Positions 4,486-28,605 of a DNA stretch of 43,505 bases are shown one piece after another. The stretch comes from Planctomycetota bacterium (GTDB lineage: Bacteria > Planctomycetota > Planctomycetia > Pirellulales > S012-138). The translations under genes were made by a program, and so were the position numbers. Position 1 is the first letter of the stretch. Each line of letters begins with the position of its first letter. Location of the stretch: NCBI GenBank assembly GCA_024279285.1, contig JAJRRR010000266.1:1-43505 (forward strand), written 5' to 3'. The notes beneath the pieces were generated by a model. The model was not told the DNA's origin. It ran no database searches and worked only from the letters and a program-made list of their open reading frames with translations.

Positions 4486-5778
4486 ATGGCTTGGCAACTG
4501 ATCGTTCAGGCCCGAGCTCGCAAAGACGGCACTTTCCACCGTCGTCAGTGGCTACGGATGGTGGGCACGGGAGCAGCGTTGAGCCCGATGCTGGGCTGGG
4601 CCGACTTTGTAGCCACTCGGGCCGACGAACTGAAAAAACGCAACAAACAGTGCATCCTGCTTTGGATGCAAGGCGGGCCCAGTCAGTTTGAAACCTGGGA
4701 TCCCAAGCCCCGGCACGCCAACGGTGGCTCCACCAAAGCAATTTCAACCCAAGTGCCCGGGGTGCACATAGCCGAGCATCTGCCCCAGTTGGCCAAACAA
4801 ATGCACCGCTTGGCGGTGATTCGCACGGTCAGCTCGCGCGAGGGGAGTCATCCTCGGGCCACGGCCCTGATGCACACCAGCTACCTGCCCACCCCGACGG
4901 TGAAGTATCCCTCCTTCGGGGCCGTGGTGGCTCAACAGTTGCCCAATCCTGAGTGTGAACTCCCGCCGGTGGTTCAAATCGGACGTCAGGGCACAGTGGC
5001 CGTAGGAGCCGGTTTTTTGGGTATGGAGTATGCCCCGTTCGTGGTTCCTCAGGCCGGCCAGCCCCCTCAAAATTCGCAGATATTGACTTCCGCCAGCCGG
5101 TTTCGTCGCCGATTGGGACTGCTGGAGGAGTTAGAAGAAGAATTTGCAAAAGAAGCTCCCCAACTGGTTCAAACCCATCGCCAGCTTTACCGTAAAACGG
5201 CCCGAATGATCCTCAGCCCGCAAATGGAAGCCTTCGACCTGTCCCAAGAACCTGACTCGGTCCGACGCCAGTACGGTCAAGGCAACTTTGCCAACGGGTG
5301 TCTGCTGGCCCGACGGCTCGTGGAGCGAGGAGTGCCGTTTGTGGAGGTTTCCTTGCCGGGTTGGGACACGCACAGCGACAACTTCCAACGCACCCCGCAG
5401 TTGTGCCGCCAGTTGGACCAGCCTTTTGCGGCTTTGCTGGAAGATCTGGACCGTCGGGGATTGCTGGAGCGGACGCTGGTCATCTGGATGGGCGAGTTTG
5501 GTCGCACGCCGCGGATCAATCCGCGCAGCGGTCGGGACCACTTTCCGCGAGCGTTTTCCGTGGCTCTGGCCGGAGCTGGCATCCGCGGGGGGGTGGTCAT
5601 CGGTCGTACCAGTGCGGATGGAGTCACGATTGAAGATCGCCCGGTGAGCGTGGCCGACCTGTTCCGCACCTTCTGCCGGGCATTGGAAATTGACGCGGAT
5701 CACGAGTACATGACCCCGATTGGGCGCCCCATCAAAATCGTTGATGGCGGCCAAGCCGTGGAGGAATTGTTCGGCTAA
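4486..5778 (+). CDS. DUF1501 domain-containing protein
   Basis: KQCILLWMQGGPSQFETWDPKP, GWDTHSDNF, VIWMGEFGRTPRINPRSGRDHFP; ggaaggag RBS; follows the DUF1549/1553 gene. Confidence 0.9.
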   Translation: MAWQLIVQARARKDGTFHRRQWLRMVGTGAALSPMLGWADFVATRADELKKRNKQCILLWMQGGPSQFETWDPKPRHANGGSTKAISTQVPGVHIAEHLPQLAKQMHRLAVIRTVSSREGSHPRATALMHTSYLPTPTVKYPSFGAVVAQQLPNPECELPPVVQIGRQGTVAVGAGFLGMEYAPFVVPQAGQPPQNSQILTSASRFRRRLGLLEELEEEFAKEAPQLVQTHRQLYRKTARMILSPQMEAFDLSQEPDSVRRQYGQGNFANGCLLARRLVERGVPFVEVSLPGWDTHSDNFQRTPQLCRQLDQPFAALLEDLDRRGLLERTLVIWMGEFGRTPRINPRSGRDHFPRAFSVALAGAGIRGGVVIGRTSADGVTIEDRPVSVADLFRTFCRALEIDADHEYMTPIGRPIKIVDGGQAVEELFG

Positions 5779-6226: not shown

Positions 6227-7834
6227 ATGGCAAGCTCCGATCAAGAACATCACACAGAATCCCCTGCTACTCGGCTTGTCCGGCTGTTGCGGGAAGCCGA
6301 CACGCCCGAGGCTCCCTTGGGCGACCCGGGAGCCCTGGCTTGGGAGTTAGGCTCGGCAGCGGCTTCCGATCCCTTGCCTGCCCTGGAAGCCTTAGTCCAC
6401 TTTCTTCGCTTGGGCCACCAGCCCCTGTCGCCAAAACAAAAGCACATCATTGAAGCCTTCTTGCAAGCCTTGGCCCAAGTGCGCATGCGTGCAGTACACG
6501 AGCAACGCATTGAGCCTTGGTCCGATCAGGCCGTGGAGTTGTTGGGGTTGTTGTATGGGCTGCTTCGGGATCAGGAAGCTGCGGCTCATTGGGTCCTTAC
6601 CCTTTTGGCCACCGACTCGGGCCAGCGAGCCCTGGGAACCTTTGCCGATCTTGTGGTCACCCAAGGCCCTCAGCATGCCCGAGCTTGCGACTTGGCATTC
6701 ATGCCGCTTTTCCTGCACCACAAATTGGACCACCAGGCACTCTTTCCTCGGCTGTGGGAAGCTCTGGACCGGCCTCACATGGTCGGGTGCATTCTGGATC
6801 TTGCCAATTATCTGTTCCGCAAGCAAATTACGCCGGAGCATGTGGGCCAGATGCGCAAAAAGGGGCTGTTGGAGCTTTATCGGGGATTGATCAACCACCT
6901 GGAAGACTTGCAAACCAACCCTCAAAAGTACGCCTCCGATACCCAAAAACTCCGCCAACTGCTCAACGAGTCGGTGCCTTTGGTTGTGTCGCTGACCGAT
7001 GCGATGGGCTTGTTGGGACTGGAGGACGCCCTGCCGTTGGTGCGTCGGGCAGCGGAGCTGAGCCACCGTCGCGTGCAGGCCGAAGCCGCCGCCGCTCTGG
7101 TCCGACTCGGAGACGAACAAGGCCAACAAATCCTCCAACAACTGCTCCACGAACCTGGGACCCGAAGACGAGCCATCGCCTATCTGAAAGAGTTGGGCCT
7201 GGAACACCTCATTCCCCAGGAGTGTTCCTCCCCGGAAGCTCTGGCCGAAGCAGAACTGGCCGAACATCTGGCTGACCCTCGCCAGGTGGGCATGGCTCCC
7301 ATGCACATGCGCCTGCTTGATCGTCGGCGGCTGGCGTGGCCCGGCTACCACCAACCCGTGGATTGCTACCTGTTTGAATTCCGCTACGAACTCCCTTCGC
7401 GGTCGTTTACTGGGGTGGGGATTGCCGGACCGGTGGTACATAGTTTTCTGGTAGATATGCAAGACTTGTCTCCTCGGGACATCTACGCAGCTTATGCAGG
7501 CTGGAGTGTAGAAGACCCTCACCTGGGCGAAGTGGCCGCTGAGGACTTCACCGATCAACAGGCCCAGCTTGCCCAGCAAGCTCAGCAGGAAATTGCCCAA
7601 CGCGGTTATGAGGAGGTTCGGGTGGTGAAGTTGGGCCAGTTTTACGGCCAGCAGGTACCGGTGGCCGTGGCGCGGCGTGGGGGGCAGTTGGGCGTGGTGG
7701 TTTGGGACGGCAAAGAACTCCTGTGGTTCCCGGCCACGGGAGGAGCCCGGCCCTTGGGCCCGAACGAAGCATGGCACATCTACAAAGGACGCCGCCTGCT
7801 GGACAGCTTCAACGGCCCTCAATGGTGGAGATAG
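6227..7834 (+). CDS. HEAT-repeat-like domain hypothetical protein
   Basis: ALPLVRRAAELSHRRVQAEAAAALVRLGDEQGQQILQQLL is HEAT-like; RBS upstream of ATG; 535 aa. Confidence 0.75.
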   Translation: MASSDQEHHTESPATRLVRLLREADTPEAPLGDPGALAWELGSAAASDPLPALEALVHFLRLGHQPLSPKQKHIIEAFLQALAQVRMRAVHEQRIEPWSDQAVELLGLLYGLLRDQEAAAHWVLTLLATDSGQRALGTFADLVVTQGPQHARACDLAFMPLFLHHKLDHQALFPRLWEALDRPHMVGCILDLANYLFRKQITPEHVGQMRKKGLLELYRGLINHLEDLQTNPQKYASDTQKLRQLLNESVPLVVSLTDAMGLLGLEDALPLVRRAAELSHRRVQAEAAAALVRLGDEQGQQILQQLLHEPGTRRRAIAYLKELGLEHLIPQECSSPEALAEAELAEHLADPRQVGMAPMHMRLLDRRRLAWPGYHQPVDCYLFEFRYELPSRSFTGVGIAGPVVHSFLVDMQDLSPRDIYAAYAGWSVEDPHLGEVAAEDFTDQQAQLAQQAQQEIAQRGYEEVRVVKLGQFYGQQVPVAVARRGGQLGVVVWDGKELLWFPATGGARPLGPNEAWHIYKGRRLLDSFNGPQWWR

Positions 7835-7905: not shown

Positions 7906-7939
7906 GAGGGCAAGTGGAGGCGTGTTTGCTCAACTCGCT

Positions 7940-7965
7940 CCCGCAACTGAAGCTGCGGGCTCGCC
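7940..7965 (+). repeat. 20-nt hairpin repeat (family 2) with CTCGCC tail
   Basis: CCCGCAACT-GA-AGCTGCGGG + CTCGCC; same layout as the 28.2-28.5 kb units; one stem mismatch. Confidence 0.7.
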
Positions 7966-8115: not shown

Positions 8116-8709
8116 TCACTCCAGCGGCTTGACCATGATGTTGCGATAACGGACCACCGAGCCTGGGTCGTGCTGCTGAAGGGCAATGTAGCCTTCGGTG
8201 TAGGTGTTGTTCTTGTCCACAAAGTCCACCACCACCTGACCGTTGACTTTGATGATGATGTGGTTTCCGCGCACGATCACATGCTGAGTGAACCACTTGT
8301 TGTCTTCCACCAATTGGCGGCGGACATCCACAAATCCGTAGAGGCTTCCGGTTTTGCGAGGATCGCGGTGGGTGTTGTTGACTTGGGCTTCGTATCCTTT
8401 GGGCCAACCGGGACCGAGTTGAGCCCGAAAATACATCCCCGAGTTCCCGCCAGGGTTGATCATCACCTCGGCTTTGAACTCAAAGTCTTTAAACTTGCGT
8501 TTGATGTAGAACAGGTGGCTTCGGGCCCCGCGACCCACGATCGCTCCGTTTTCCACAGTCCAGTTTTCCGGGCGTTCGTAAGCTTTCCATCCGTTGAGTG
8601 TGCGACCGTCAAAGAGACGAATCCAGCCGGGCTCGTCTGCCAGGGCAGTCCACGGAACGCATGCCGCCCAAGCTACCACTACCATCCAACCCAAGCGTGC
8701 AATTTTCAT
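8116..8709 (-). CDS. DUF1080 (3-keto-disaccharide hydrolase-like) secreted protein
   Basis: Signal peptide MKIARLGWMVVVAWAACVPWTALA; WIRLFDGRTLNGWKAY..W.VENGAIVG; NSGMYFRAQ; RBS ggagagccacaATG. Confidence 0.88.
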   Translation of the reverse strand: MKIARLGWMVVVAWAACVPWTALADEPGWIRLFDGRTLNGWKAYERPENWTVENGAIVGRGARSHLFYIKRKFKDFEFKAEVMINPGGNSGMYFRAQLGPGWPKGYEAQVNNTHRDPRKTGSLYGFVDVRRQLVEDNKWFTQHVIVRGNHIIIKVNGQVVVDFVDKNNTYTEGYIALQQHDPGSVVRYRNIMVKPLE

Positions 8710-8937
8710 TGTGGCTCTCCTTTTTGGGGAAACGGTGTTCGGGGGTCGTTTGTGGCCATTGTAGTCGGGCTGGCTCGTCGGCACAGCGCCCCCGGGGAGA
8801 TTCTTCTCCAAGGGCCGCATGTGTGCTGTGCTGTCCCTTTGCCCCAGTTTGACCTATGTCAAGGCATGTTCTACAGTTGCAATGACCGAAGCGCTCCCAG
8901 GCAAGCGTTTCTCCTCCTGAGGCCAAGGAGCACGAGC

Positions 8938-13112: not shown

Positions 13113-13396
13113 GGTCGGCACTTCTCCGAGTGAGGGTAATAGGTGCGAACTTGGCCCGGGCCGGAGCTTGCATGCGTTTTTAGTGTTTCCGGTGCGGTTG
13201 GAAGATGCAAAAGTGTTTTGGCGAGAAAATTGGAAAATTTCCTCAAGCTCCCCTGCCGTGAGGCGAATCACCCTTTGGAAAGCTCCCCCGGGAGCCAATT
13301 TCTGAACACCGATTTGCAGGAAAAACCCTTGGCGATGGGTCCCGGATGGCGGCAAGGGGCGTTTCCCAAATCCTCGGAGGGTAAGGAGTTAAAGCC

Positions 13397-26173: not shown

Positions 26174-27025
26174 ATGCCCCTTGCCGTGTTTACTAAAAGC
26201 TTTCAGGATTGGTCGCTGGAGGAGGTGTGTCGTCGGTTTCGGTCCTTGGGGGTGGATGGGCTGGATTTGACGGTTCGCCCAGGTGGCCACATCCATCCCA
26301 AAGACGCACCGGAGCTGGTACCGCAAGCAGTGCTGGTGGCCCATCACCACCACTTGCGCGTGCTCATGTTGACCACTTCCATTACCCAAGCCGACCGCCA
26401 AGCCCAAAAACTTCTGGAAGTAGCCGCCCAAGAGGGCATCACGCACATCAAACTGGGCTACTATCGCTACATTGGGCTGGGACATCTCAAACGCCACATG
26501 GACCAGGTGCGACGCCACCTGGAACGCATCGTCAAAATGGCTCGTCCCTTGGGAGTGCTCCCTTGCGTGCACATTCACTCAGGGCCTTACATTCCATCGC
26601 ACGGAACCATGCTCTATGAGCTTATCAAGGACTTTTCTCCCCAGGAGCTGGGAGCCTATGTGGACATGCTGCACATGGTGTTGGAAGGCGGAGGAGCCGG
26701 ATGGCGTCAGGGACTGGAGCTGTTGGGCCCTTGGATTGCTCTGGTGGGAGTGAAGAACTTTCGTTGGGAACCGGGCCGGCGGGACCGTTGGGGACAGTTG
26801 CGATGGCACACTCGCAATTGTCCCTTGGCCGACGGAGTCAGTCCCATCCCGGATTTCGTCGCCACCTTAAAGCGCTTGGGCTTCCAGGGTATCTATTCCC
26901 TCCACAGCGAATACAAAGGAGCTCATAGCTTTCGCAACCTCTCCACCCAAGAGTGTCTGGAACAGACTGCCCGGGATTTGAAGTTCTTCCGTCCCTTGCT
27001 GGAACAAGAGGAAAAAAGCCACTAA
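26174..27025 (+). CDS. sugar phosphate isomerase/epimerase (AP-endonuclease-2-like TIM barrel)
   Basis: LGVDGLDLTVRPGGHI, LGAYVDMLHMVLEGGG, LVGVKNFRW, GIYSLHSEY; RBS aaggag. Confidence 0.85.
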   Translation: MPLAVFTKSFQDWSLEEVCRRFRSLGVDGLDLTVRPGGHIHPKDAPELVPQAVLVAHHHHLRVLMLTTSITQADRQAQKLLEVAAQEGITHIKLGYYRYIGLGHLKRHMDQVRRHLERIVKMARPLGVLPCVHIHSGPYIPSHGTMLYELIKDFSPQELGAYVDMLHMVLEGGGAGWRQGLELLGPWIALVGVKNFRWEPGRRDRWGQLRWHTRNCPLADGVSPIPDFVATLKRLGFQGIYSLHSEYKGAHSFRNLSTQECLEQTARDLKFFRPLLEQEEKSH

Positions 27026-28089
27026 GGCTCTGGTGTCCGCGTGTCCCGAGGATGACACAAGTAAAACCACACACCAGGGTCAATTTCAAAATCAATCGTG
27101 CGGGCCGAGCCATCACACATGGCCGCCACGAGCCCCTGGGAATGGGAGCCTCCAAACCGAGCATGCGGATATGAAACAGTGGCTGTGTCCTTGGCAGGCC
27201 CCAGTAGCGCTCCCTTGCCACCGGTGCGCTCCAGTCGGGCCAGAAACCCCGTCGGATCCCGGCTCAGTTGCTCCCAAGCCTCAGCACTCAGAGGGCGCCG
27301 CATCACGCTCTCATGCCAAGGGCTGGCAAAGCCGAACCAATCTCCCGGGTGCCGAGTTCCAAGCAGCGTGCCGGGAATGTGTTTCTCGGCCACCAGCACG
27401 GTTTGAGAACGCCCGTCGGCAACAAACTCCCAGGTGCGAAGCTTGGCAGGACGACGGTACTGCCGACACACATTCACCGGCAGCAGAAGCGACTCTGTTC
27501 CCAAGTCCACCGCGGCAAAGTCGCTGGGCTGGTATTCCACTTGTCTTTGATCCCACTGGGCTACGAGGAGCCCTTGCCTGAAACGGCGCGAAGTGCAAAT
27601 CAACTGTGGCACCGGGCCGGCGATCAAGCAGCGCATTTGGGTCCGGTGCCACACATCACTCAGGTCCAGTTGCGGCAGGAGCTGAAAGCCCCAACCCAAG
27701 GGCTGCTCCAAGCCCAACAAAACCTGAACCTCCTCGTTCTGTTGGCGAAACCACCGCAGCCCTTGGCCCTGGAAATAGGCAGCTTGTTGAGCTTTCGGGT
27801 CCAGTTGGGGCCAGAATCCCGCTGTGGGCACAAACCCCCTTTGAAGCTCGTGCTGTTGGACCGCCTCGGCCAAAATGCCCAAATTGTGCAGACACCGCTT
27901 GTGCCTCGCCTCTTCTCGCTTGGTCCAAAGCGCAGAGAACAACAGTCCCAGCAGAACAACCACCAACAGCACTCCTCCCATCAGCACCCCAAAGACCGTC
28001 AAAAATACCAGAAGTTTTTCTCCCCTGACTCCAACTTCTGAAGGTGCCGAAGTGGGAGGGATCGGGGATTCGTCGGAGTGCTGATTCAT
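27022..28089 (-). CDS. DUF1559-like pseudopilin-type protein with divergent N-terminus
   Basis: N-terminal TM; RCLHNLGILAEAVQQHELQRGFVP; C-terminal ARFGGSHSQGLVAAMCDGSARTIDFEID resembling the H-x9-DG motif. Confidence 0.7.
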   Translation of the reverse strand: MNQHSDESPIPPTSAPSEVGVRGEKLLVFLTVFGVLMGGVLLVVVLLGLLFSALWTKREEARHKRCLHNLGILAEAVQQHELQRGFVPTAGFWPQLDPKAQQAAYFQGQGLRWFRQQNEEVQVLLGLEQPLGWGFQLLPQLDLSDVWHRTQMRCLIAGPVPQLICTSRRFRQGLLVAQWDQRQVEYQPSDFAAVDLGTESLLLPVNVCRQYRRPAKLRTWEFVADGRSQTVLVAEKHIPGTLLGTRHPGDWFGFASPWHESVMRRPLSAEAWEQLSRDPTGFLARLERTGGKGALLGPAKDTATVSYPHARFGGSHSQGLVAAMCDGSARTIDFEIDPGVWFYLCHPRDTRTPEP

Positions 28090-28216: not shown

Positions 28217-28240
28217 CTCGGCGAGCCCGAAGCTTTCCAG
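28217..28240 (-). repeat. decayed half-unit of hairpin repeat family 2
   Basis: GGCGAG-CCCGAAGCT (right arm plus tail in reverse orientation) with a non-matching left arm. Confidence 0.4.
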
Positions 28241-28256
28241 CCGCGTGCCGAAACTT

Positions 28257-28282
28257 GGCGAGCCCCGGACTTCAGTCCGGGG
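28257..28282 (-). repeat. hairpin repeat family 2 unit (reverse orientation)
   Basis: GGCGAG + CCCCGGACT-TC-AGTCCGGGG; reverse complement reads CCCCGGACT-GA-AGTCCGGGG-CTCGCC. Confidence 0.8.
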
Positions 28283-28316
28283 AAAGCCAAAAGACACGCT
28301 GGTTCGCCGTGTTTCT

Positions 28317-28342
28317 CCGCCGGCTCAAGCCGGCGGCTCGCC
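28317..28342 (+). repeat. hairpin repeat family 2 unit
   Basis: CCGCCGGCT-CA-AGCCGGCGG-CTCGCC. Confidence 0.8.
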
Positions 28343-28416
28343 GGTTGCAAGAATAGACGTTTGTGCTTGCTCCGGAGCAGAATCTCCGCCGCTAGTCGCA
28401 AGCCGCGTGCCGAGCC

Positions 28417-28454
28417 GGAGCGGAAGCTCCTCGTGGCTGACACGGCACTGCCGT
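28417..28454. repeat. two further short hairpins in the same cluster
   Basis: GGAGC-GGAA-GCTCC (28417-28430) and ACGGCA-C-TGCCGT (28442-28454). Confidence 0.5.
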
Positions 28455-28457
28455 CCT

Positions 28458-28483
28458 CCCATGGCTGAAGCTATGGGCTCGCC
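28458..28483 (+). repeat. hairpin repeat family 2 unit
   Basis: CCCATGGCT-GA-AGCTATGGG-CTCGCC (one G.U-compatible position). Confidence 0.8.
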
Positions 28484-28520: not shown

Positions 28521-28605
28521 GCGTCGAAACAAGAATCCACGCCGATCTTCACGCGCCGCAGGTCGCAGGACGCGGGTCGCAAGTCGCGAGTCGCGTCCTG
28601 CGTTT
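28521..28605 (+). repeat. dispersed intergenic repeat family 1, copy D
   Basis: gcgtcgaaacaagaatccacgccgatcttcacgcgccgcaggtcgcaggacgcgggtcgcaagtcgcgagtcgcgtcctgcg. Confidence 0.7.

Follow-up and report, generated by a model that had tools for sequence, protein, structure and literature searches.

The window analysed here, the whole stretch of 43,505 nucleotides, belongs to a 3.88-Mb planctomycete MAG (G000), which was compared with two MAGs of the same genus (G001 and G002) and with an outgroup (G003). Between a DUF1559 gene (27022-28089, minus strand) and the divergently oriented recG (plus strand), the window has a cluster of short hairpins, and a further copy lies between the convergent ORFs 6227-7834 (plus) and 8116-8820 (minus). 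The four hairpin units reported by the first-pass annotation were all recovered, at 28257-28283 (minus), 28316-28342, 28457-28483 and 7939-7965 (the last three plus). Scored with a covariance model, they are an A-type candidate REP unit, CCCCGGACT-GA-AGTCCGGGG-CTCGCC (28257-28282, minus; 42.3 bits, E 1.2e-8), which on the plus strand, its tag strand, runs GGCGAG, stem and loop TTCA; a B-type unit, CCGCCGGCT-CA-AGCCGGCGG-CTCGCC (28317-28342, plus; 41.5 bits, E 2e-8); a unit with a diverged stem, CCCATGGCT-GA-AGCTATGGG-CTCGCC (28458-28483, plus; 39.1 bits, E 1e-7); and the isolated unit between the convergent ORFs, CCCGCAACT-GA-AGCTGCGGG-CTCGCC (7940-7965, plus; 41.3 bits). A "decayed half-unit" described at 28217-28240 corresponds to a marginal covariance-model match only (28220-28248, minus; 18.6 bits, E 0.15), possibly a decayed unit. 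The A- and B-type units form a head-to-head, BIME/REPIN-like pair of 86 bp (28257-28342), in which hairpin A, preceded by GGCGAG, and hairpin B, followed by CTCGCC, are separated by a 34-nt linker (28283-28316) with a small inner inverted repeat (ACACG...CGTGT). An Rfam search of the window matched no family.

The 9-bp stems and the constant CT-NA-AG apex described at first pass need some revision. The 9-bp stem is perfectly Watson-Crick in two of the four units, but the other two have one non-Watson-Crick position each, namely a G.T pair in CCCATGGCT/AGCTATGGG (CCCATGG/CTATGGG) and an A.C mismatch in CCCGCAACT/AGCTGCGGG (CCCGCAA/CTGCGGG). The apex is indeed constant, but it is better read as a TNAA tetraloop (TTNA on the opposite strand) on an 8-bp stem, with one of the four loop bases free; the foot of the hairpin is unpaired, and CTCGCC is its reverse complement. 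Read 5' to 3' on the tag strand, a unit consists of GGCGAG, an 8-bp stem arm, the loop TTNA or GTNA, the second 8-bp arm and AG; a CT before the stem on the CTCGCC strand (TCT or CCT in most units) is a fifth near-invariant element, missed at first reading. When every CTCGCC was scanned for a directly preceding stem, the loops found were TGAA, TAAA, TCAA, TTAC, TCAC, TGAC and TAAC, with TTAA absent from the common loops, and TNAC loops carry the same CTCGCC tag as TNAA loops. CTCGCC directly follows a 6-bp stem in 255 of its 728 occurrences in loci L110-L189 (4 stems for the control hexamer CCGCTC), and a stem precedes it in 50 of 268 cases in unselected G001 contigs (control 1).

The observation that stem sequences differ with pairing kept was borne out. 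In an alignment of units with at least 5 of 7 pairs, we counted 33 double-change cells where shuffles gave 12.5, and a covariation score of 0.430 compares with 0.186 in the shuffles (neither the score nor the double-change count was reached in any of 500 shuffles), so that compensatory change exceeds what chance produces; slid structures scored 0.13 or less. Stem pairing had played a part in the choice of this alignment, and a second test therefore used units picked by their loop and tag alone: in twelve G001 contigs, with no stem selection, 38 of 45 stems are perfect, compared with 8.2 for re-dealt arms. Larger sets, part of them fetched with a stem-containing pattern, gave 84/100 and 198/236 perfect stems, compared with 21 and 42 for re-dealt arms. 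Perfect stems make up 84% of the units in G001 and G002, versus 16% in G000, where up to a quarter of the matches may be background. The genic context of the G001 units was left out, since greedy ORFs are unreliable there, spurious ones covering the arrays.

The motif is amplified throughout the genus and stands at background elsewhere in the order. Exact matches of CTNAAG-N7-CTCGCC number 44 in G000 (12 for the reversed-pattern control), 420 in G001 (control 1) and 964 in G002 (control 6), and the other genomes of the family and order that were searched hold 0-6. Genome-wide, the motif is thus above its control, and not at the level of shuffled sequence; the window itself has 4 exact matches, where shuffles, although allowed one mismatch, average 1.1. 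With a covariance model based on 23 units, 72 matches were obtained in G000 at E<=1. As palindromes of 20-40 bp with a high genome copy number and an unpaired tag (GGCGAG/CTCGCC) at one foot of the hairpin, the units have the features by which REPs are recognised.

Neighbouring units are most commonly arranged, in the relatives, head to head (minus-plus), tags outward and 30-50 bp apart (10 such pairs in G001 and 42 in loci L110-L189; such pairs are rare in the G000 contigs examined). This is the BIME/REPIN arrangement of two inverted REPs with a short fixed spacing, and the window pair at 28257-28342, A-34 nt-B, has the layout of 63 other unique pairs from the three same-genus genomes. The linker is mostly 30-36 nt among these 64 pairs, and 62 of them join stem type A (CCCCGG-type) to stem type B (CCGCC/CCGGG-type), a count in which A-A pairs are possibly under-sampled, as the sample was partly fetched with a B-type pattern, though the G001 contigs, chosen otherwise, agree. 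Pairs with identical partners number 0 of 64, where about 11.5 would be expected. Pairs of two stem types are also what the Y/Z BIMEs of E. coli consist of, and having two different stems presumably avoids one long palindrome.

A mobilising transposase of the REP-associated kind, suggested as a search target at first pass, was found in the sister genome G002, bordered by units, but none was found in the window's own genome. There (97% complete) no Y1_Tnp match reaches E<=0.001, the one match seen being non-significant (E 0.43); G001 (96% complete) has no Y1_Tnp match, and searches with the G002 protein returned no RAYT homologue in G000 or G001. G002 has five Y1_Tnp matches above the Pfam cut-off. 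One of them is a RAYT of 203 aa on contig C494 (L091:12616-13227, minus; Y1_Tnp PF01797, 32.1 bits, cut-off 23), with the motifs HIH, WWT and Y---Q and a match to NF047646 (REP-associated tyrosine transposase) below the cut-off of that model; a PDB sequence search with it gave nothing significant. The gene is bordered by an A hairpin, GGCGAG-CCCCCGGC-TTTA-GCCGGGGG, and a B hairpin, CCGCCGAC-TAAA-GTCGGCGG-CTCGCC, so the cassette has exactly the layout of an A...B pair, with the RAYT gene in the place of the linker. A RAYT flanked by the same REPs, here of the CTCGCC/TNAA type, is what is called a REPtron; one cassette of the exact A-RAYT-B type was seen. The loop of the flanking A hairpin supplies the stop codon of this RAYT (TAA; L091:12616-12626), so the repeat encodes the C-terminus of the protein.

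Other RAYTs of G002 have borders of their own. A second one, 52% identical and encoded on the same contig, has hairpins with the GGCGAG tag and GTCA loops at its borders, and the hairpins bordering a third (L090) are tagged CCAAGAG; the sister RAYTs appear, on these small numbers, to keep distinct loop and tag types. Around the third gene, arrays of CCAAGAG-tagged hairpins with GTCA or GTTA loops form tandem direct repeats (L090:3910-4140 and 4750-4975). Another Y1 protein of G002 (L238:1111-1890), just over the NF047646 cut-off, lies between long direct repeats with other hairpin types.

The sdhA-sdhB gap presents one site in three allelic states. In G000 and in the outgroup G003 it is short and hairpin-free; in G001 it contains GGCGAG-B-linker-A-CTCGCC, with the RAYT gene absent; and in G002 it contains, oriented as in G001, GGCGAG-B-RAYT-A-CTCGCC, flanked on either side by an additional 119-bp repeat. 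This repeat is a block of two B hairpins, directly repeated at L091:12458-12576 and 13250-13369. The G001 pair is either the cassette minus its gene or a pair of the kind that the gene entered, and either origin ties the pair to the RAYT. When flanks were compared more widely, most matches joined one repeat to another, and one more site proved usable; there, a pair is present in G001 (L187) and the G000 counterpart (L107) is empty. The region upstream of recG in G001 and G002, considered as a possible empty site for comparison with the window cluster, has a different neighbouring gene and is not comparable.

Of 297 genomes from the order, 118 have relatives of the G002 RAYT, and these conserve HUH, WWT and Y---Q. 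The density of GAG-tagged hairpins was measured at 24 loci with full flanks, all outside the genus: it is 2.42 per kb up to 250 bp from the RAYT and 0.02 per kb more than 500 bp away. Such hairpins lie on both sides of the gene at 8 of the 24 loci, and their loops are GTNA, GCAA, TCA or TTTAT. This concentration at RAYT borders speaks for a branch of RAYTs whose guide ends in GAG. Several RAYTs from other genera (L242, L243, L245, L254, L258 and L260) have repeated hairpins or hairpin pairs on both borders.

REPs, BIMEs and RAYTs are already known, also from Planctomycetes (PMC3733652). The present units resemble the GTAG-REP/BIME/REPIN elements and their RAYTs (TnpA_REP group 2/3 REPtrons of E. 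coli, Stenotrophomonas and Marinomonas; PMC3733652, PMC8266576) in the unpaired 5' tag ending in AG, the short perfect stem with a tiny loop (TTNA, as in the Marinomonas REP_Mb), the hundreds of copies, the head-to-head dimers 20-100 bp apart and the RAYT flanked by the same hairpins. They differ in having GGCGAG (CGAG) as tag, not GT[AG]G or CGTC, with an 8-bp stem and a 4-nt loop, and in the enzyme, which has WT and Q at Y+4 where known GTAG RAYTs have WQ and the N of YIxxNP. With the tag of the GTAG-REP superfamily (GTAG or GT[AG]G), GGCGAG shares the final AG only, and the CGTC-REP superfamily (CGTC tag, 8-9 bp stem starting A-T, loop of 4-5) is set apart by the CGAG tag and G+C-rich stems found here. 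Class 3 of TnpA_Y1 (Quentin et al. 2018, PMC6006769), rare, planctomycete-rich and associated with atypical CnGA-footed hairpins, is similar in occurring mostly in Planctomycetes, in its W[TA] motif and in its hundreds of hairpins not tagged GT[AG]G; compared by description only, it differs in the CnGA foot and in YV[VI][AENY]EQ (Q at Y+5), against CGAG and Q at Y+4 here. IS200/IS605 elements share the Y1 HUH enzyme, subterminal hairpins with a 5' guide and hairpins at both ends of the cassette, but here no TnpB was seen in the cassette, the hairpins hugely outnumber the enzyme gene, and the flanking hairpins are inverted with tags outward. Given the absence of GT[AG]G and CGTC tags and the mismatch with class 3 as reported, we place the system as a variant of REP-RAYT: the kind is known, but both its tag (CGAG in place of GT[AG]G) and its RAYT branch are atypical. 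With it, REP/RAYT systems reach into a planctomycete branch whose guide tag is not of the GTAG type.

It is therefore very probable that the hairpins are REP elements, short non-autonomous repeats which a RAYT (TnpA_REP, HUH/Y1) copies, or once copied, in single-stranded form. Of the roles proposed at first pass, the REP/BIME-like one with a mobilising nuclease is supported by the amplification in the genus, the head-to-head pairs and the RAYT-bordering hairpins of the sister genome, while a protein-binding palindrome, a recombination target or an RNA processing site found no direct support. For the Marinomonas RAYT (PMC8266576), T12, T13 and A15 of the loop are required and position 14 is free, stem mismatches are disliked and swaps of stem sequence have a moderate effect only, and the last two tag bases, AG, select CT cleavage sites. 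These determinants (TTNA loop, unmismatched stem, tag-final AG) are the invariant positions of the present units, whose free but paired stem, fixed TTNA and fixed AG are what the Marinomonas rules predict. By this analogy, recognition of these hairpins by the RAYT would involve the foot with its tag, the paired stem and the bases of the loop, and cleavage would fall at a CT dinucleotide; as stem pairing would matter more than stem sequence, stems would drift by compensatory change with tag and loop fixed, and the mobile form would be the head-to-head pair of two different stems, A...B, which is also the arrangement around the RAYT gene.

With no RAYT found and stems mostly broken in G000, the window units look like relics, and decay after loss of the enzyme in this lineage is the simplest reading of the G000 stems. 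Several findings count against the RAYT explanation: neither G000 nor G001 yielded a RAYT, the tag is CGAG and not GT[AG]G, and a single cassette of the exact type was seen. In G001, moreover, 84% of the stems are perfect although no RAYT was detected; this could reflect recent RAYT loss or an assembly gap at the repeats.

An improbable alternative is that the hairpins act as RNA (as terminator, mRNA stabiliser or processing site), with selection on transcripts keeping the pairing. REPs in other systems are known to affect transcripts, and the conserved pairing and uniform tetraloops (TNAA/TNAC) would suit such a role, which is possible as a secondary function. However, the units occur in both orientations and mostly as head-to-head pairs, the unpaired CTCGCC tag, which is not a U-run, matches the loop in conservation, Rfam gave no match, the G000 units persist with pairing largely lost, and the window cluster lies between divergent genes and not at a 3' end. 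We give similarly little credence to quasipalindrome correction, by which perfect stems would arise from replication template switching, and copies from ordinary duplication. Without any selection, template switching can produce paired compensatory changes, and it may contribute to new stem types; however, it leaves the tag and loop conservation, the A+B pairing and the RAYT link unexplained, and the decaying G000 stems imply that correction is not restoring stems there. Least probable of all are selected, non-mobile binding sites for a nucleoid or regulatory protein (e.g. gyrase or IHF-like), which would fit the invariant apex and tag and the binding of such proteins by REPs of other bacteria (PMC6006769), but not a copy number of 44 to 964 within one genus and background in the order's other genera, units that border RAYT genes, or empty orthologous sites.

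The three allelic states at one site and the contrast between crisp and decaying REP populations within a genus make the relation of BIMEs to RAYTs, and the fate of REPs after RAYT loss, testable. RAYTs are usually regarded as stationary domesticated enzymes. A more tentative idea, which we hold to be possible though rather unlikely, is that in this planctomycete branch the B-RAYT-A cassette is itself mobile, the abundant A-B pairs being its internal-deletion derivatives. The REPtron would then be a true insertion-sequence-like element with its own CGAG guide, and the TTNA and GTNA loop specificities would be split between sister RAYTs of one genome.

The arrays around the units are mosaics of several hairpin types. 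The conserved B-unit flank (GGTTGCAAGAATAGACGTTTGTGCTTG..., plus strand) is the next mosaic module, of the kind TGCAAGAAT-(linker)-ATTCTTGCA, itself a hairpin, which usually follows CTCGCC (at 28343-28383 in the window and in many other copies). Short direct repeats of the GGTCGCAAGTCGC kind adjoin the units at 28559-28605, and strings like GACTGGCGACTGG and CCAAGACCCA recur next to units elsewhere in the window's genome. At 28417-28430 there is another hairpin, GGAGC-GGAA-GCTCC (or GGTGC-GGAA-GCACC), which recurs beside units in all three genomes; as a RAYT relative at L270 is flanked by GGRA-loop hairpins, the GGAA-loop hairpin may be a second REP class.
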